A stretch of 64,000 nucleotides of DNA from a virus. How positions within the stretch are numbered: the stretch's first letter is position 1; each line of letters starts with the position of its first letter. The notes below the pieces were generated by a model. The model ran no database searches. It was not told the DNA's origin and worked only from the letters and a program-made list of their open reading frames with translations. The DNA lies in IMG/VR virus record IMGVR_UViG_3300033182_000980, positions 310,001 to 374,000 of that record. One strand, given 5' to 3'. Position numbers and translations under genes: made by a program. Shown here one piece after another: positions 2,908 through 42,149 of this stretch.

Positions 2908-3365
2908 GGCCAGTAATAATCCATACCTGCTTCATCAAATGGGAAATAGTCTTTATAATGCTCGTAGTCTTTCTCTAAGAGCTTAGACCTATGCGACCTA
3001 TGGACTAACTCATTACCCCACCATACAGGGGCATTTTTGAACGCATTTGGGTGTTGTTCTCTCCAACCCTCAAAGCGTTCAAGCATGGTGTCTTTATATC
3101 CACGCTCAATCCATTCTTTACAAATGGCTTCCGAGTAAAGGCACAAGAACCACTCATGCCCTTTCCACATAAGGACAGCAGGGTGTTCAATCCAACCCCT
3201 CTTACGCTTTACCCCACGCTTGTCTGTCATGTAGAGATCATTACGCTCTATATGACCAAGCGTGTTGAGTATCTGATAGGACTCGACCCTTTGCTTGCCG
3301 AGTCGTTGTCGATCTAAAGACCAAGAGATGAACTCAAGGTCATCACTAGGTACGAAGGTTTGCAT
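2904..3365 (-). CDS. Pyr_excise / MSMEG_6728-like protein
   Basis: 153 residues. The N-terminus MQTFVPSDDLEFISWSLD is followed by RQRLGKQRVESYQIL, then HPAVLMWKGHE, WIERGYKDT and HRSHRSKLLEKDYEHY, ending in DYYWP. This pattern matches the small family annotated as pyrimidine-dimer glycosylase-like (Pyr_excise, related to T4 endonuclease V); enzymatic activity is not proven for most members. A DNA-repair role is known for the wider family and only inferred here. Its stop overlaps the stop of the convergent hub gene by 4 bp through a shared TTAA. It begins with a TAATG overlap with the lipoprotein gene upstream. Confidence 0.7.
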   Translation of the reverse strand: MQTFVPSDDLEFISWSLDRQRLGKQRVESYQILNTLGHIERNDLYMTDKRGVKRKRGWIEHPAVLMWKGHEWFLCLYSEAICKEWIERGYKDTMLERFEGWREQHPNAFKNAPVWWGNELVHRSHRSKLLEKDYEHYKDYFPFDEAGMDYYWP

Positions 3366-3790
3366 TAGCTCTCGTCCTCCTCTTTCAGACCTACTATGAA
3401 CAGGGGAGATAAGAAGAGGGATAAGCCACTAAGAAAGCCAGTAGCCTTGCAAATGCCTATCGTGTCGTCTGCGTCCTCCATTTTTTGTTTTGCAGAAGAT
3501 AGCTCTACTTGATCACTATCCGAAGGGACAGAGACACATTGCATCATCCATTTAGGGCGATACAGAGTTCCTGTCTCAGCTCCGACATACCTGTGGTATC
3601 GGGTGTGTGCTCCATGATACATTTTCCTGCCCCGATAGTAGACTAGCTCGGACATCCCATTACATTCCAATGGGATATGTGATTGAACACTACCAACCTC
3701 TCTCCGAGCTGTTCGGTAGTCGCTGTAGGAAGAGGTACATTGTACTACCGACAGACTAAACATGATTGTTAAGGTTATTAGGGCGTTCAT
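3365..3790 (-). CDS. Lipoprotein with C-terminal membrane segment
   Basis: 141 residues. The N-terminus MNALITLTIMFSLSVVQC is a signal peptide with a lipobox-like VVQC, predicting lipidation at Cys18. A second hydrophobic stretch near the C-terminus (ATGFLSGLSLFLSPLFIVGL) could span a membrane, and the tail is acidic. An RBS (AAAGGAGAAC) precedes the ATG. It may act in the host envelope, for example in superinfection exclusion or lysis, but no family was recognised. Upstream at 3811-3838 lies a promoter-like GTAACCCCTTAT variant. Confidence 0.65.
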   Translation of the reverse strand: MNALITLTIMFSLSVVQCTSSYSDYRTARREVGSVQSHIPLECNGMSELVYYRGRKMYHGAHTRYHRYVGAETGTLYRPKWMMQCVSVPSDSDQVELSSAKQKMEDADDTIGICKATGFLSGLSLFLSPLFIVGLKEEDES

Positions 3791-36997: not shown

Positions 36998-37005
36998 CAT
37001 ATAAT
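36998..37005 (+). promoter_or_regulatory. CATATAAT -10-like box
   Basis: CATATAAT about 40 bp before ATG 37042, directly after the hairpin of the upstream motif. Confidence 0.4.
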
Positions 37006-37041
37006 ACACGAACACCCACTCACTCACCAAAGGAGATCCTT

Positions 37042-38187
37042 ATGGTACTACCACCAAACCATGACCCTACACAATACGCAAAGCGTGATCCCTTGAGCTT
37101 CGCTAAGGGTGCGTTTGAAGCGTTGACCTTAATGCTCAAGGACATCAAGGTCGTCCGACAGGGCGGCACTTTTGCAATCGCATCAGCCTTTCCTTGGCTC
37201 GTCTTTGGGCGAGCTATCCAAGACACAAGAGCGTCTGACTACCACTCGAAAAACGAGTGGCTCAAAGCCATCTACAGGGACGCTCAGTACAAGTTTCAGT
37301 CATCACCCGATACTGCTACTCTGTTTCTTCCAGCTCCATCAGCGGCAGGTGTGACGACAATCAACGCTAGTGCTGGTGTTGGTGGAGGTGTGCATGAAGC
37401 AGGTCATGCGATCTGCGACTGTGCGAACGGACGCTTCCCGACTTATGAGCAGTTTCGAGCTAAGGTCGGCCGCCACTTGGATATGACTATCCCCTACCAC
37501 GAGTCAAACTTCCCCAAGTGGGTAAATGTGACTGCTGACATGAGGCTTGAGCCAGGAATGGCTTTGGCTTATCCAGAGGTCGAGCATCGCTTCCATGCAA
37601 TCCAAACTTGGTGTCATGGTCTTGAGGCAGAGGGTCGAGGTCAGGAAGTACCTAGCGACTTTCTCATGGCTCTTAGAGATGCTGGTAAGGGTTGGGTGTC
37701 TGACGAGTCAAAGGCTGTCTATGCAGAGTATCAGCAAGACGCTAGAGACTTGGTTGACTACCTCCGACCAATCTGGTCAGAGCTAAAGCCTCGCAATACA
37801 GATTGGGCTGACTCGGCTCACCTCCCTGTCTATGTCGCTGTGGAGATCATCAACGCCTTACATAAGATCTTAAAAGAGCCTCCCCCTCCCCCTAAGCCAA
37901 GGGGGGGCAAGGGCAAGGGCAAGGGTGATCCTCAAGATAAAGGTAAGGGAGATGGGAAAGGTGATCCTCAAGATCAGCAAGACCCACAAGATCAACAAGA
38001 CACGCAACAGTCAGCAGGCAAGTCTCCAATGAGCCTTGAGGACATCAAGCGTCTGCTCGATGGGGAGGGTAAAGCACTTGATCCGAACAGTGCGATGAAG
38101 CAAGAGGTCGAAAAGAACAAGAGGTATCTTGACCACGAGCTGTACATCCCTAACGGAGCAAAGCCAATCTATCGGAAGCTCCTCTAA
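37042..38187 (+). CDS. CobT-like N-terminal/metallopeptidase-like protein, HEAGH
   Basis: 381 residues. HEAGH at 118-122 is a zinc-metallopeptidase HExxH motif. NVTADMRLE at 162-170 resembles the downstream N-x-x-x-D-x-R-x-E element of VWA-associated metallopeptidase-like proteins (DUF2201-type) and CobT. A Gly/Lys/Asp/Gln-rich disordered stretch (KGKGKGDPQDKGKGDGKGD, ~290-330) follows, then a short conserved tail. CobT usually carries this region fused to a C-terminal VWA domain; here the VWA domain is the separate next gene. It probably works with the AAA+ ATPase. Protease activity is inferred. Confidence 0.65.
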   Translation: MVLPPNHDPTQYAKRDPLSFAKGAFEALTLMLKDIKVVRQGGTFAIASAFPWLVFGRAIQDTRASDYHSKNEWLKAIYRDAQYKFQSSPDTATLFLPAPSAAGVTTINASAGVGGGVHEAGHAICDCANGRFPTYEQFRAKVGRHLDMTIPYHESNFPKWVNVTADMRLEPGMALAYPEVEHRFHAIQTWCHGLEAEGRGQEVPSDFLMALRDAGKGWVSDESKAVYAEYQQDARDLVDYLRPIWSELKPRNTDWADSAHLPVYVAVEIINALHKILKEPPPPPKPRGGKGKGKGDPQDKGKGDGKGDPQDQQDPQDQQDTQQSAGKSPMSLEDIKRLLDGEGKALDPNSAMKQEVEKNKRYLDHELYIPNGAKPIYRKLL

Positions 38188-38201
38188 CAGATCGGGGCTG
38201 T

Positions 38202-38222
38202 TGTAACCCCTTACTTATCCTA
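38202..38222 (+). promoter_or_regulatory. Early promoter motif, variant
   Basis: TGTAACCCCTTACTTATCCT between the HEAGH and VWA genes, with RBS AAAGGAGAC following. It shows they are two genuine genes and not a frameshifted one. Confidence 0.55.
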
Positions 38223-38244
38223 CTCTTGAAAGGAGACTTATATC

Positions 38245-39057
38245 ATGCCTAATAAGTACGACACACAAGTCTTGTCCTCGATCAATCGGGGAACAAATAA
38301 AGTGAGGCGAGCCTTAGAGGTCGCCAATCAAAAGGTCGGTCAAAACTTTATCGGTGCTCGCTTGAACACTCGAAGCTCGGCTCTCGTGAATACGCTTACT
38401 AGCGTTCGCACTGGTCAGATCAATCGTGATCGCTACCATAAGATGTACCAGAAGCCACAAGTGAGAGCGGCGTTCTCGTTCGCTATAGACGGTAGCGACT
38501 CGATGAACTACAACACAGGGTGTCCGAGTGGCACTTACTGGAAAGAGTGTATCAGTCTCATACATGGGCTTCATACAGCTTGCCAAGGGATCGGGGTTGA
38601 CTCAACCTCTGCGTTGGTCATGTACACCTATGGTGATCGTGATGTGCCTATGGCAAGCTCTAGCTATAAGCCTGTGGCTAACATGATCAAAGGTCTTGGT
38701 GATAAATGGCAACGAGATAATCCCGATAAGCTACGCAAGAAGCGTTGCAATGGAGGAACATCAATCATCTGTTATGCCGAGACCGCACTAGACATGGTAT
38801 CTCAATCTGACGCTACCCATAAGATCGCCTTCTTCCTTACCGATGGTGAGGACTATGAAAAGGCTTACCTAGAGAGCATGAGACAGCAAGCTCAAGCTCA
38901 AGGCATCAAGCTAGTAGGGATCGGGCTAGGTGTGAGTGGTGATCGACTCCCTAATGGCATTAGTGGTGCTAATGCTCTTGAGATCGCACCTCGAATGATG
39001 GATCACCTAGAGAAAATCATCAAGTCCTCAACAGGTGTAGAGGCAAACGACAAATAA
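38245..39057 (+). CDS. cobT-like: VWA-domain protein (CobT C-terminal-like), 270 aa
   Basis: MIDAS residues of a von Willebrand A domain: DGSDS at 82-86 (IDGSDSMNYN), Thr172 in NGGTSI, and Asp200 in FFLTDGEDYEK. A basic N-terminal helix region (NRGTNKVRRALEVANQKVGQ) links to it. VWA proteins bind a metal and partner proteins. With MoxR/CobS ATPases they form chelatase or chaperone complexes. Its own promoter and RBS precede it. The cobalt chelatase role is unlikely in a phage; a virion- or host-protein remodelling role is inferred. Confidence 0.75.
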   Translation: MPNKYDTQVLSSINRGTNKVRRALEVANQKVGQNFIGARLNTRSSALVNTLTSVRTGQINRDRYHKMYQKPQVRAAFSFAIDGSDSMNYNTGCPSGTYWKECISLIHGLHTACQGIGVDSTSALVMYTYGDRDVPMASSSYKPVANMIKGLGDKWQRDNPDKLRKKRCNGGTSIICYAETALDMVSQSDATHKIAFFLTDGEDYEKAYLESMRQQAQAQGIKLVGIGLGVSGDRLPNGISGANALEIAPRMMDHLEKIIKSSTGVEANDK

Positions 39058-39058
39058 T

Positions 39059-39066
39059 CATATAAC
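39059..39066 (+). promoter_or_regulatory. CATATAAC -10-like box
   Basis: ATCATATAAC about 55 bp before ATG 39122, just after the VWA stop codon. Confidence 0.4.
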
Positions 39067-39121
39067 CCAAAGACCAACCAAACCCAGCCCACATGGGCCT
39101 CAACACAGGAGAACAAAGCCA

Positions 39122-39466
39122 ATGGCTAACATCCGAACCCTCATCAAGTCATCCCTCCAATCAGACAGCTCCGGTATGCGTGTTGCTGACATCGCTGACT
39201 CCATCGGGGTGTCCTACTCCTCTACCTATCAGACCATCAAGAACATGGAGTCTGACGGTGAGGTCAATAAGATCGCTCGTGGGGTCTATGCCCTTGCGTA
39301 CATCCCTAACTTCAGCACCGCCGAGTGCATCTCCCTCCTCCAGTCTTTGGAGAGCCAAGAGATCGCTGTTGAGATCGCTCGTGAAGAGCTTGATCGAGCA
39401 GAGGCACAGCTTCAAGCTGTCAAGCGTACCATCAAGTCAACCATGATGTCAGCGTTCGAGGACTAG
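39122..39466 (+). CDS. Winged-helix DNA-binding protein, 114 aa
   Basis: Residues 1-65 form a clear winged helix: MRVADIADSIGVSYSSTYQT, IKNMESDGEVNKIARGVYAL, with the recognition helix at ~30-42 and a wing rich in Gly/Arg. The C-terminal part is a coiled coil (IAVEIAREELDRAEAQLQAV). Such proteins are usually repressors or activators. It lies just upstream of the paired tRNA-like RNAs and may share a transcript with them. Confidence 0.7.
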   Translation: MANIRTLIKSSLQSDSSGMRVADIADSIGVSYSSTYQTIKNMESDGEVNKIARGVYALAYIPNFSTAECISLLQSLESQEIAVEIAREELDRAEAQLQAVKRTIKSTMMSAFED

Positions 39467-39494
39467 CCGACCTCTGCCCTTAGTGGCATTCGAT

Positions 39495-39611
39495 AGACGC
39501 AGACGCTGGTGTCTCACATCTAGGCTTTGTCCATGAGCTGAACGAACAACACTTTTTGAAGGTAGGTGCTGTTCCCGATGTGATGGGAGGTTCGACTCCT
39601 CTATGTGTCTT
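39495..39611 (+). ncRNA. tRNA-like structured RNA A
   Basis: Acceptor-like stem AGACGCA (39495-39501) with TGTGTCT (39604-39610). T-arm GGAGG-TTCGACT-CCTCT at 39586-39602. A long-range helix TCACATC (39514-39520)/GATGTGA (39577-39583) closes the interior. A hairpin GAACA(a)CACTT...AGGTG(c)TGTTC spans 39544-39574. The 5' block GACGCTGGTGTCTCACAT matches RNA B. No proper anticodon arm, tmRNA tag frame or encoded CCA is seen, so it is called tRNA-like, not tRNA. The structure was paired by hand. Confidence 0.5.
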
Positions 39612-39636
39612 TAGGAGATTTAGTCTTGTATCTCCG

Positions 39637-39791
39637 AGCCTTAGACGGTTGGTGTCGCACATACAGGTTTTAGTGTATTGTCCTGTAGCTCTAATCTGAT
39701 CGCTGTGGGTGGCGATCTCACTCGTACTTTTGGGAAGGGGTACAGAGTAAAGATTGAGCAGTGTCGGAGGGTTCGACTCCCTCGTAAGGCT
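39637..39791 (+). ncRNA. tRNA-like structured RNA B
   Basis: Acceptor-like stem AGCCTTA (39637-39643)/TAAGGCT (39785-39791), perfect. T-arm GAGGG-TTCGACT-CCCTC (39767-39783), perfect. Interior hairpin TACAGG/CCTGTA (39662-39687). Long helix GCTC(t)AATCT (39688-39697)/AGATTGAGC (39751-39759) encloses hairpins GATCGC/GCGATC (39698-39717) and CTC-GTACTTT/GGGGTAC-(a)-GAG (39721-39747). The 5' block GACGGTTGGTGTCGCACAT is shared with RNA A. About 155 nt, too long for a normal tRNA. Confidence 0.55.
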
Positions 39792-39830
39792 TTACGATTA
39801 GATTTCTAGCCTGTGGGCGAGGGGCTGATC

Positions 39831-39876
39831 TGTAACCCCTTATTTATAGTCTAGTGTAAGGGTTGATTGACAGCCC
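39831..39876 (+). promoter_or_regulatory. Early promoter motif with 5' hairpin
   Basis: TGTAACCCCTTATTTATA, CTAGTGT, then GGGTTG-attga-CAGCCC (39860-39876; one G-T pair), leading to the 25-residue ORF. Confidence 0.65.
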
Positions 39877-39903
39877 ACTAACCCACTCCCAAAGGAGAAA
39901 CAA

Positions 39904-39981
39904 ATGGTACAGCTCTTTATCTTCCTCCCTGTCCTCTTCCTCGCCTACGCCATGCTCTGTGATTGGGTTGTTGGCGAGTAA
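39904..39981 (+). CDS. Membrane micropeptide, 25 aa
   Basis: ATG 39904 follows AAAGGAGAAACAA and a full promoter/hairpin leader. The product MVQLFIFLPVLFLAYAMLCD, then WVVGE, is one transmembrane helix with an acidic end. Having its own promoter, hairpin and RBS makes it very likely to be expressed. Function unknown. Confidence 0.6.
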   Translation: MVQLFIFLPVLFLAYAMLCDWVVGE

Positions 39982-39997
39982 AGTAAAGTCGGGGTTC

Positions 39998-40038
39998 TGT
40001 AACCCCTTATCTATTACCTAACATGAGGAACGATCCTC
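39998..40038 (+). promoter_or_regulatory. Early promoter motif with 5' hairpin
   Basis: TGTAACCCCTTATCTATT, CTAACAT, then GAGGA-acga-TCCTC (40025-40038). Confidence 0.7.
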
Positions 40039-40069
40039 ACAACCACTCACTCTCATAGGAGAACAAGAC

Positions 40070-40372
40070 ATGATCGACTTAACCAACTACCCAATGCTCA
40101 ACGCTCGTCAGCACACCCCCTTCTTCGCAGACCTCACCTCAGAGGATCGTGTGATGAATGTCAACGGTAGCCCCATGTCTCATGGGGTGTGGAACATGAT
40201 CGTCAGCCACCGAGATCTCAAGCTGTGGTGTCGGCTCGGAATGAAACCCCATCGTGGGTGGAAGGTGAGCCAGGCGAAGGCTTACTTCGGCATCAAGGGC
40301 AACAAGGACAAGCTCTTGAAAGAGTTTGAGGCTCTTAAGGCAGAGGTAGACGAGATCCTTTTAGGGCGATAA
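40070..40372 (+). CDS. Hypothetical protein, 100 aa
   Basis: RBS GGAGAACAAGAC precedes ATG. MIDLTNYPMLNARQHTPFFA begins; the middle has MSHGVWNMIVSHRDLKLWCR and a basic stretch (PHRGWKVSQAKAYFGIKGNK), then a helix. The layout is that of a small DNA-binding protein, without a named motif. Confidence 0.6.
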   Translation: MIDLTNYPMLNARQHTPFFADLTSEDRVMNVNGSPMSHGVWNMIVSHRDLKLWCRLGMKPHRGWKVSQAKAYFGIKGNKDKLLKEFEALKAEVDEILLGR

Positions 40373-40382
40373 TGATCGGGGT

Positions 40383-40423
40383 TGTAACCCCTTATCTATA
40401 ACCTAACATGAGGAACGATCCTC
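40383..40423 (+). promoter_or_regulatory. Early promoter motif with 5' hairpin
   Basis: TGTAACCCCTTATCTATA, CTAACAT, GAGGA-acga-TCCTC (40410-40423): hairpin identical to that at 40025, so this leader is a recent copy. Confidence 0.7.
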
Positions 40424-40451
40424 ACAACCACTCACTCCCAAAGGAGACAAC

Positions 40452-40976
40452 ATGAACAGCGTAAACATCACAGCCGAAAACTTTATCCCAGCTCTCCTCG
40501 CACCCTTCGGTGGCAAGGACACCCACAACGAGGCAGGCGAGGCTCTCCCCTCAACCAGCTCTAAGGCTTGGAGCTTCACCCTCCACAATCGTGATCGCAA
40601 CACTCACCTCACCTTCAAGGCTCGCCGCCCGAAGGGGTGGACTGTAGAGTCTCCTGTCCTCATCGACCTCATGACAGGCAAGGACAACGATGCAGACTTT
40701 GGCTTCATCGGGAGCGTCAGTCCTCGTGGGTTCTACAAGCCAAGCCCCAAGAGCAAGGTAGACGCTGATCGCCTTGAGGTAGCCAATCGCACAATGGTTT
40801 GGCTTCTCACCAAGCTCAACAATGGGGTGGAGCTTCCCGATGCCCTAGAGATCAAGGGTGCTTCTAAGTGCTGTAGGTGTGCTAAGAAGCTCACCAACCC
40901 CGACAGCGTAGACGATGGGATGGGTCCAGTCTGTCGCCGTAAGGCTAACGAGAGCAAGGTTAGCCGAGGGGTCTAA
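40452..40976 (+). CDS. DUF6011-like zinc protein, 174 aa
   Basis: The C-terminal motif CCRCAKKLTNPDSVDDGMGP then VCRRK matches the DUF6011 pattern (CxxCxxxLTxPxSxxxGxGPxC), a small zinc site. The N-terminal part (WSFTLHNRDRNTHLTFKARR) is shared with the paralog at 50168, so they are two versions of one gene. The function of DUF6011 is unknown. The zinc knuckle suggests nucleic-acid contact. Confidence 0.7.
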   Translation: MNSVNITAENFIPALLAPFGGKDTHNEAGEALPSTSSKAWSFTLHNRDRNTHLTFKARRPKGWTVESPVLIDLMTGKDNDADFGFIGSVSPRGFYKPSPKSKVDADRLEVANRTMVWLLTKLNNGVELPDALEIKGASKCCRCAKKLTNPDSVDDGMGPVCRRKANESKVSRGV

Positions 40977-41032
40977 GGGTTGGGCTAGGGTCGGGGCTGA
41001 AAAGCTCTTAGAGGGGCATTTAAGAGATCGTA

Positions 41033-41090
41033 AGAAAAGTTTGTAGGTTTTGTCCGATAGTGGTCAGAGCCTTCGTCTTATAGGTGAACA
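41033..41090. repeat. 50-bp intergenic element, copy 2
   Basis: AGAAAAGTTTGTAGGTTTTG then TCCGATAGTGGTCAG and TTATAGGTGAAC, matching 36645-36697. It precedes the 41108 gene, which has no GTAACCCC motif, so it may be its promoter. Confidence 0.6.
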
Positions 41091-41107
41091 GCAAAGGAGA
41101 ACAAGAC

Positions 41108-41416
41108 ATGAGACATGATAACCTAACTCTCCCCAACAACCGAAAGGGAAGCACGATGAAGATGAGAGCAAGACGAGGCGACCTTATCACCCTCCAACCT
41201 GATGCCTGTGGCTACTTCGAGTCCGAGGTCGGCTGTACGGTAACGCTCATGAGTGAGGATCTCGGTAATCGTACGGTGCGTGTCATCAAGGCTCGTGATC
41301 AGTTCCACCACGACTGGCCCGAAGCTCCAAATAACCTCATGCTCGTAAGGTGTGAGGGTCAACAGTACCTTGTGTCTCGTGAGCATCGCCACCTCTGCTT
41401 GGTGTCGGGGAGCTGA
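41108..41416 (+). CDS. Hypothetical protein, 102 aa
   Basis: ATG 41108 (MRHDNLTLPNNRKGSTMKMR) follows AAAGGAGAACAAGAC; the GTG frame from 41084 overlaps the RBS. Met17 at 41156 is an alternative. The rest is beta-rich (GDLITLQPDACGYFESEVGC, LMLVRCEGQQYLVSREHRHL), like a small SH3-type barrel. Function unknown. Confidence 0.55.
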   Translation: MRHDNLTLPNNRKGSTMKMRARRGDLITLQPDACGYFESEVGCTVTLMSEDLGNRTVRVIKARDQFHHDWPEAPNNLMLVRCEGQQYLVSREHRHLCLVSGS

Positions 41417-41472
41417 TCGGGGTTGGACCCTAGAAATCATGGGTCGGTCATATCCAGCTCTAGTGCCAGAGC

Positions 41473-41521
41473 TGTAACCCCTTATCTATGATCTAGTATC
41501 AAGGGTTGACTGGTTCAGCCC
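41473..41521 (+). promoter_or_regulatory. Early promoter motif with 5' hairpin
   Basis: TGTAACCCCTTATCTATG, CTAGTAT, then GGGTTGA-ctggt-TCAGCCC (41503-41521; one G-T pair). Confidence 0.7.
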
Positions 41522-41549
41522 AACAGACTCCAGAAAGGGAGAACAAGAC

Positions 41550-42149
41550 ATGACCAACAAGACCTTCGCAACCATGATCATCATCGGCATTGCCCTCGCT
41601 GGCTTCTATGGTAAGGCGAGCATTGAGGCCCATGAGGGCAGGGCAGTTTACCACAGCGAGTGTGAGATCAGCTCACACCCTGTGCAGTACCTCCACACGA
41701 CAGGGAAGAAGAGGTGGAGGAAGTGGGTCTACCTCGATACTGTAAATGGTGTCGAGATCAAGGCGAGCAAGGATCAGCACAAGGCGTGTGAGAGCGTGAA
41801 GGTTCTCATGTCGAATGAGGCGGAGCTTGCAGAGGCGAACCGACTCAAGAGCATCGAGAACCAGAGGCTCTTAGCAGTCCTCGGTTGGTTCTTTTTGATC
41901 ATGGTGGTTGAGGTCGCCATCAACTATCTGGCTAAGAGGCGAGAGCGTCTTGAGTGGGAAGAGGCGAAGCGACAACAAGACCTTGAGCATAAGCGAGAGT
42001 GTGAGAAGTGGGCGGCGAGGCGTAAGGCAGAGGAAGCCGAGCGTATGAGGTCTAAGACAGCGAATGAAGAACGAGCAAAGCGAAAGGCCGAGAGGGGAGC
42101 AATCCTTGAGGCTAGGAGGCTTGCTAACCTAGAGCGTAAGAAAGGATAA
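41550..42149 (+). CDS. Membrane protein with cytoplasmic coiled coil, 199 aa
   Basis: TM1 at ~6-18 (TFATMIIIGIALAGFYG) and TM2 at ~108-125 (LLAVLGWFFLIMVVEVAINY) flank a loop with two Cys (HSECEISSHP ... HKACESV) that could pair in the periplasm. The last ~70 residues are a highly charged helix (RRERLEWEEAKRQQDLEHKR). The protein would reach from the inner membrane into the cytoplasm. Function unknown. Confidence 0.6.
   Translation: MTNKTFATMIIIGIALAGFYGKASIEAHEGRAVYHSECEISSHPVQYLHTTGKKRWRKWVYLDTVNGVEIKASKDQHKACESVKVLMSNEAELAEANRLKSIENQRLLAVLGWFFLIMVVEVAINYLAKRRERLEWEEAKRQQDLEHKRECEKWAARRKAEEAERMRSKTANEERAKRKAERGAILEARRLANLERKKG

Follow-up and report, generated by a model that had tools for sequence, protein, structure and literature searches.

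Results

Features of the locus

The window analyzed here is a 64,000-nucleotide stretch, bases 310001–374000 of the 375,691-base IMG/VR record of a giant phage. Two tRNA-like RNAs, A and B, lie in tandem within it, in a stretch without a plausible gene, between the end of a gene at 39466 and a small gene beginning after 39900. The features of the locus, in window coordinates, are as follows.

38206..38219, + strand: promoter-like motif ACCCCTTATNTATA with two mismatches, the nearest upstream on the same strand; promoter role inferred
39122..39466, + strand: upstream gene for a 114-aa winged-helix protein, with weak AbiEi_4/TrmB-type HTH matches
39468..39495, + strand: leader CGACCTCTGCCCTTAG[T/A]GGCA[T/G]TCGATA, kept in the related phage G001 (alignment)
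39496..39609, + strand: RNA A, tRNA-like with an expanded domain at the anticodon position, 114 nt without trailer (scanner, cloverleaf minimum-free-energy [MFE] structure, identical copy in L009)
39496..39501, + strand: A acceptor 5′ strand GACGCA, partner TGTGTC at 39604–39609 (pair probability 0.66–0.96)
39502..39513, + strand: A D-arm GAC-GCTGGT-GTC, with GG in the loop (pair probability about 0.9)
39514..39583, + strand: A central domain, 70 nt, predicted by folding to replace the anticodon arm
39586..39602, + strand: A T-arm GGAGG-TTCGACT-CCTCT (scanner, core alignment)
39610..39613, + strand: trailer TTTA after A; the same TTTA lies 3′ of B and of the homologue in L023
39638..39790, + strand: RNA B, tRNA-like with a larger central domain, 153 nt (scanner, cloverleaf MFE)
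39638..39643, + strand: B acceptor 5′ strand GCCTTA, partner TAAGGC at 39785–39790 (core alignment, folding)
39644..39656, + strand: B D-arm GAC-GGTTGGT-GTC (core alignment, folding)
39657..39764, + strand: B central domain, about 108 nt, branched (folding; z −2.8)
39767..39783, + strand: B T-arm GAGGG-TTCGACT-CCCTC (scanner, core alignment)
39791–39794, + strand: trailer TTTA after B, matching that of A
39835..39848, + strand: next promoter-like motif, immediately past B (motif count)

The element ACCCCTTATNTATA is repeated 35 times in the window, against 0.9 copies expected. Its sites span 3822–52523 (e.g., 26232, 36706, 39835, and 40387) and lie upstream of genes on both strands, some of them behind a GGGG..CCCC hairpin. 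The element is probably a phage-specific promoter. With such motifs at 38206 and 39835, A and B would form the 3′ end of a transcript. Nothing in the A/B neighborhood pointed to any particular target.

Detection of RNAs A and B

The scan of the window required pairing of the outer six acceptor positions (at least five pairs Watson-Crick), a T-stem whose TTCGANT loop lies exactly as far from the 3′ end as in tRNAs, and GG in a D-loop position. A and B were the sole matches in the 64 kb, and no match was found in 60 dinucleotide-preserving shuffles of the window. A tandem pair of tRNA-like RNAs had been placed here by the original prediction, and both members were recovered; A and B are real, beyond chance. 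ARAGORN called no tRNA and no tmRNA in the window, and Rfam at the gathering threshold matched nothing there. When the Rfam search was relaxed to E ≤ 10, there was still nothing above threshold for A or B, and A gave a sub-threshold tRNA-Sec match of 15.8 bits. Neither ARAGORN, which had been named as a check, nor Rfam recognized the two RNAs. In whole-RNA folding against shuffles, A was not unusual (z −0.9); B folded better than its shuffles (z −2.3), and the central domain of B had a z of −2.8.

Anatomy of RNAs A and B

Folded from its first acceptor base onward, each RNA has as its MFE structure a cloverleaf with an acceptor stem, a D-arm, a central arm, and a T-arm. Judged by the features of canonical tRNAs (RF00005), both carry a T-arm with a TTCRANY loop under the acceptor and a D-arm with GG in the loop, and the cloverleaves of both lack a 5-bp anticodon stem with a 7-nt anticodon loop. 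Exactly 7 nt separate the T-stem from the acceptor end. Position 7/66 is mismatched (G-A in A, G-G in B), and the acceptor-like stem, originally given as 7 bp, is thus a 6-bp stem plus this mismatch. The T-stem of A (GGAGG/CCTCT) contains one G-U, and the energy model favors a register shifted by one, with the canonical register at about 16%. The U8 of tRNAs is not retained in these RNAs.

The central domain of A consists of a 7-bp helix, TCACATC (39514–39520)/GATGTGA (39577–39583), closing two hairpins. That of B has a GCAC/GTGT closing helix, the hairpin TACAGG/CCTGTA (39662–39667/39682–39687), and the helix GCTCTAATCT/AGATTGAGC (39688–39697/39751–39759) with two hairpins inside. Most elements described in the original prediction were found as drawn: the shared 5′ block AGACG-(N)TGGTGTC-CACAT, the T-arms with TTCGACT loops (GAGGG/CCCTC being perfect in B), the TCACATC/GATGTGA helix of A, and, in B, TACAGG/CCTGTA, GCTC(t)AATCT/AGATTGAGC, and the two enclosed hairpins. 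The statement that there is no valid anticodon arm also held, branched domains of 70 and about 108 nt standing there instead. The further statement that the RNAs have no tRNA body did not survive, the D-arm GAC-N6/7-GTC having been overlooked in what folds as a cloverleaf in both RNAs. The folding models indicate that A and B are four-way cloverleaves in which the anticodon arm alone has been replaced, by a branched domain.

Comparison with related phages

Three relatives of the locus were found in IMG/VR: one contig identical here, G001, and G002. Scans with the neighboring proteins returned the same three contigs only and none in bacterial genomes. Searches of IMG/VR with the 5′ block and with gapped D-loop/T-loop patterns found homologues of A and B only in the identical contig and in L023, a stretch of G001 (226 kb), whose flanking proteins are 81–95% identical to those of this phage. 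At the same site in G001, behind the conserved leader, lies a 57-nt RNA, GGAACAGACGATTGGTGTTGTTCTGATGTGATGGAGGGTTCGACTCCCTCATGTTCC, followed by TTTA. Its acceptor letters are unlike those of A and B yet paired, its D-block and T-arm are kept, and its anticodon arm is gone. The D-arm is thus present in all three RNAs, with one G-U in the L023 version.

In the core alignment of A, B, and the L023 RNA, 14 of 14 pairs were formed in all three sequences, and six of these had changed on both sides. This level of covariation was reached in 2 of 500 shuffles, and slid controls scored far lower; resting on three sequences, one of them without a central domain entirely, it is good but small evidence. 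The search for covariation in a related genome, suggested with the original prediction, had therefore yielded compensatory changes. Since the 14 core pairs are kept while six have changed on both sides, the upper half of the tRNA appears to be under selection. Folding of the L023 RNA itself gave −18.3 kcal/mol for a two-hairpin fold, −17.3 kcal/mol for an end-to-end acceptor fold, and −12.9 kcal/mol for the bare core, a slight advantage for the two-hairpin fold in the energy model.

The 226-kb record of G001, which may be a fragment, contains no RF00005 tRNA, yet the 57-nt RNA is retained. No such RNA is present at the corresponding site of G002, where it is therefore dispensable. No convincing tRNA-like fold surrounded the remaining T-loop matches of this phage and of the related phages.

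tRNA array and RNA enzymes of the same phage

The tRNA array of this phage (L025, G000:172800–180600) lies about 170 kb from A and B and contains nine canonical tRNAs. CCA is encoded in neither A nor B, as originally stated; since the nine canonical tRNAs also lack an encoded CCA, this is no argument against their maturation. The array further contains a 98-nt tRNA-like RNA (L025 1375–1472) with a 7-bp acceptor, TGCTTGA/TCAAGCA, and a perfect T-arm, followed by A-CCA. At L025 441–501, the anticodon arm is reduced to CACC-ATTT-GGTG, a 4-bp hairpin with a 4-nt loop. Two further tRNA-like RNAs are possible, one at about 1150–1207, possibly without an anticodon arm, and one at 2396–2462, with a degenerate T-loop, TGTAAGT.

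Another gene of the phage (L206 902–3748, minus strand; G000 about 257901–260748) specifies a 948-aa protein in which the PolyA_pol and PolyA_pol_RNAbd domains each occur twice, arranged as tandem units with motifs apparently intact in both. Its domain content identifies it as a putative doubled CCA-adding/poly(A)-polymerase-like enzyme.

Survey of other phage tRNA arrays

The survey covered this window and 549 kb of phage loci that each contained five or more tRNAs (761 tRNAs by ARAGORN). Fifteen RNAs with a paired acceptor and T-arm and a length outside 66–100 nt were found, namely A, B, and 13 others, a rate that is not unbiased, the loci having been selected by D-loop/T-loop patterns. Reversed sequences gave none. 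Some members (L084 1861–1920; L073 6272–6325) have a tiny hairpin or nothing for an anticodon arm and encode CCA; others are 100–147 nt long. For most members, the MFE structure is not a clean cloverleaf. Individual members could be pseudogenes of recent origin, and for some, e.g., L084 3108–3228, a tRNA into which a variable region has been inserted is the better reading.

Several other arrangements were observed. The same roughly 55-nt sequence, CCGGCATCGCACCTCGC...CAAGCGGTTCCTACAAGC, lies inside two adjoining tRNA-like genes, L084 3108–3228 and about 3265–3391, and may represent a small mobile tRNA-gene insert. In the same 35-tRNA array, on a 436-kb phage contig, a group I-like intron apparently splits a tRNA gene (L084 about 1925–2229). 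A stand-alone tRNA-like RNA (L034 1744–1812) lies in a stretch without tRNA genes; it has CCA-GAAA-TGG for an anticodon arm and is followed by a T-run. On two phage contigs, tRNA-Leu-like genes of 113–147 nt with AGTCAGG/CCTGACT (L110 7684–7830 and 8138–8251; L140 4332–4444) have no normal anticodon arm.

Comparison with T4 rnaC

The tRNA cluster of T4 ends in the tandem stable RNAs rnaD (species 2 RNA; 119 nt) and rnaC (species 1 RNA; 139 nt; AF158101 70908–71046). T4 rnaC is a late RNA that has been seen on northern blots, and its function is unknown (PMC9697503; PMC3014915). In an evolution experiment with a T4-like phage on a semi-permissive host, every line acquired one identical change in the region of rnaC and rnaD (PMC12685909).

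The 3′ end of T4 rnaC reads CCGGG-TTCGAAT-CCCGG and then the 7-nt CGTTTCG, with CGATTCG at the 5′ end. Among the rnaC homologues of six Tevenvirinae, the T-stem is paired in all, two of its pairs having changed on both sides, and the acceptor is paired at five of seven positions in most and at seven of seven in fHe-Yen9-01. In the rnaC alignment, 86% of cells were paired compared with 79% in shuffles, and the covariation score was reached by 0 of 500. The roughly 140-nt rnaC, whose T-arm is perfect, resembles A and B in adjoining another small RNA and in combining a T-arm, an acceptor-like strand, and covarying stems with a central domain replacing the anticodon arm; like A, it gave a sub-threshold tRNA-Sec match only. 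However, rnaC differs from A and B in having no D-arm hairpin, two U-U acceptor mismatches in T4, and another central domain, and its tandem partner rnaD is not tRNA-like by the scanner. In Enterobacter phages, the rnaC homologue lies inside the tRNA array, between tRNA-Trp and tRNA-Gly, whereas A and B are far from theirs. No sequence homology to rnaC was detectable, and positions 37000–42000 of the window had no match among phage records.

By this analogy of architecture, A and B appear to be of the same kind as T4 rnaC, an informal kind rather than an Rfam family, and shared descent is not claimed. The suggestion of a new class therefore does not hold as to kind: rnaC shares the general architecture, and the tRNA arrays of other phages contain similar RNAs. 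A literature search found no paper on anticodon-less phage tRNA-like RNAs.

Discussion

The structure of A and B is well supported, and their role is what we infer from it. With a branched domain where the anticodon arm would be, the two RNAs cannot decode. They retain the half that is read by the maturation machinery, that is, the acceptor stem, the T-arm, and the elbow formed by the D-loop and T-loop. The original description of elbow-bearing RNAs other than ordinary tRNAs was thus right. RNase P, RNase Z, and CCA-adding enzymes take acceptor/T-arm stacks as substrates. We consider it probable, on balance, that A and B are tRNA-derived, non-decoding RNAs that undergo maturation and persist as stable RNAs. 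They would be released from the 3′ end of the operon transcript by RNase P and by trimming of the RNase Z type, a 3′ CCA or A-tail could be added, for which the phage's own CCA/poly(A)-polymerase-like enzyme is available, and the products would accumulate as T4 species 1 RNA does.

Phage tRNAs are known to counter tRNA-targeting defenses (PMC11555353; PMC13096335). T5 tRNA-Tyr acting against retron-Eco7 and tRNA-Lys acting against PrrC are working tRNAs that decode and stand in for the cleaved one (PMC11555353); A and B resemble them in being tRNA-shaped but have no anticodon arm. The leading candidate for a use, which we offer tentatively, is that A and B occupy or misdirect host tRNA-binding enzymes or tRNA-directed defense nucleases while presenting no anticodon to cut. 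Specificity would then be supplied by the fast-changing central domain.

The tRNA-like folds might instead be processing punctuation that only marks RNase P/RNase Z cuts, the released RNA having no job. Mitochondrial transcripts are punctuated by tRNAs in this manner, and RNase P needs only a minimal acceptor and T-arm, to which the L023 homologue comes close. The position of A and B at the 3′ end of the presumed transcription unit, right before the next promoter-like motif, also suits such a role. However, punctuation explains neither the tandem duplication nor the large, well-folded central domain of B (z −2.8), and we regard it as improbable.

A somewhat poorer account is that A and B are degenerating tRNA genes, remnants of an array in which insertions and deletions struck the anticodon arm. 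Phage tRNA arrays change fast, copies that look degenerate are present in this phage's own array (such as the one at L025 2396–2462 with the T-loop TGTAAGT), and the L023 version resembles a deletion of the A type. This account is weakened by the covariation of the core, in which the stems of the acceptor and T-arm differ in sequence between A, B, and L023 yet remain paired, with six pairs changed on both sides. The D-arm block is conserved as well, whereas decay would strike every arm alike. Prokaryotic tRNA gene fragments resemble A and B in being partial, non-canonical, and missed or misjudged by tRNA finders, but they stem from element integration or CRISPR, and the upper halves of A and B are intact and covarying (PMC9897764).

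Two identities raised in the original prediction fared worse. It is very unlikely that A and B are tRNAs with an intron within the anticodon loop. In the central helix of A, CACAT/ATGTG could pass for an anticodon stem, with U33 and AGG, and the tRNA arrays of other phages include group I-like introns (L084 about 1925–2229 being a likely case). However, B has no equivalent stem, the L023 homologue has lost the entire arm, including the exon part, and no group I or II intron matched at E ≤ 10. Group I introns need more than roughly 55–110 nt, the size of the A and B inserts. These RNAs are thus not recognized group I-intron tRNAs. Least likely of all is a degenerate tmRNA, in which a tRNA upper half is likewise fused to a large domain where a tRNA has its anticodon arm (RF00023; PMC3929946): ARAGORN and Rfam found none in the window, RF00023 had no match above the cut-off in the 375-kb record, the alanine identity pair G3-U70 is absent (3/70 is C-G, C-G, and A-U), there is no pseudoknot ring, and, at 114 and 153 nt, A and B are less than half the size of tmRNA and too small for pseudoknots and a tag frame. 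The absence of a tag frame had been correctly predicted.

The reading of A and B as non-decoding tRNA derivatives can be extended to phages in general. It is possible, though short of likely, that translation-incompetent tRNA-like RNAs whose anticodon arm is missing, shrunken to a small hairpin, or supplanted by an RNA domain are common in phages and are selected for engaging the tRNA enzymes of the host or immunity directed at tRNAs, with T4 species 1 RNA as the first-described member. tRNA finders silently overlook RNAs like A and B in phage genomes. Viewing rnaC, A, and B as upper halves of tRNAs whose anticodon domain has been exchanged offers a structural key to the puzzle of T4 species 1 RNA, and it makes function testable through RNase P cleavage, CCA addition, binding partners, and deletion under tRNA-cleaving defenses.
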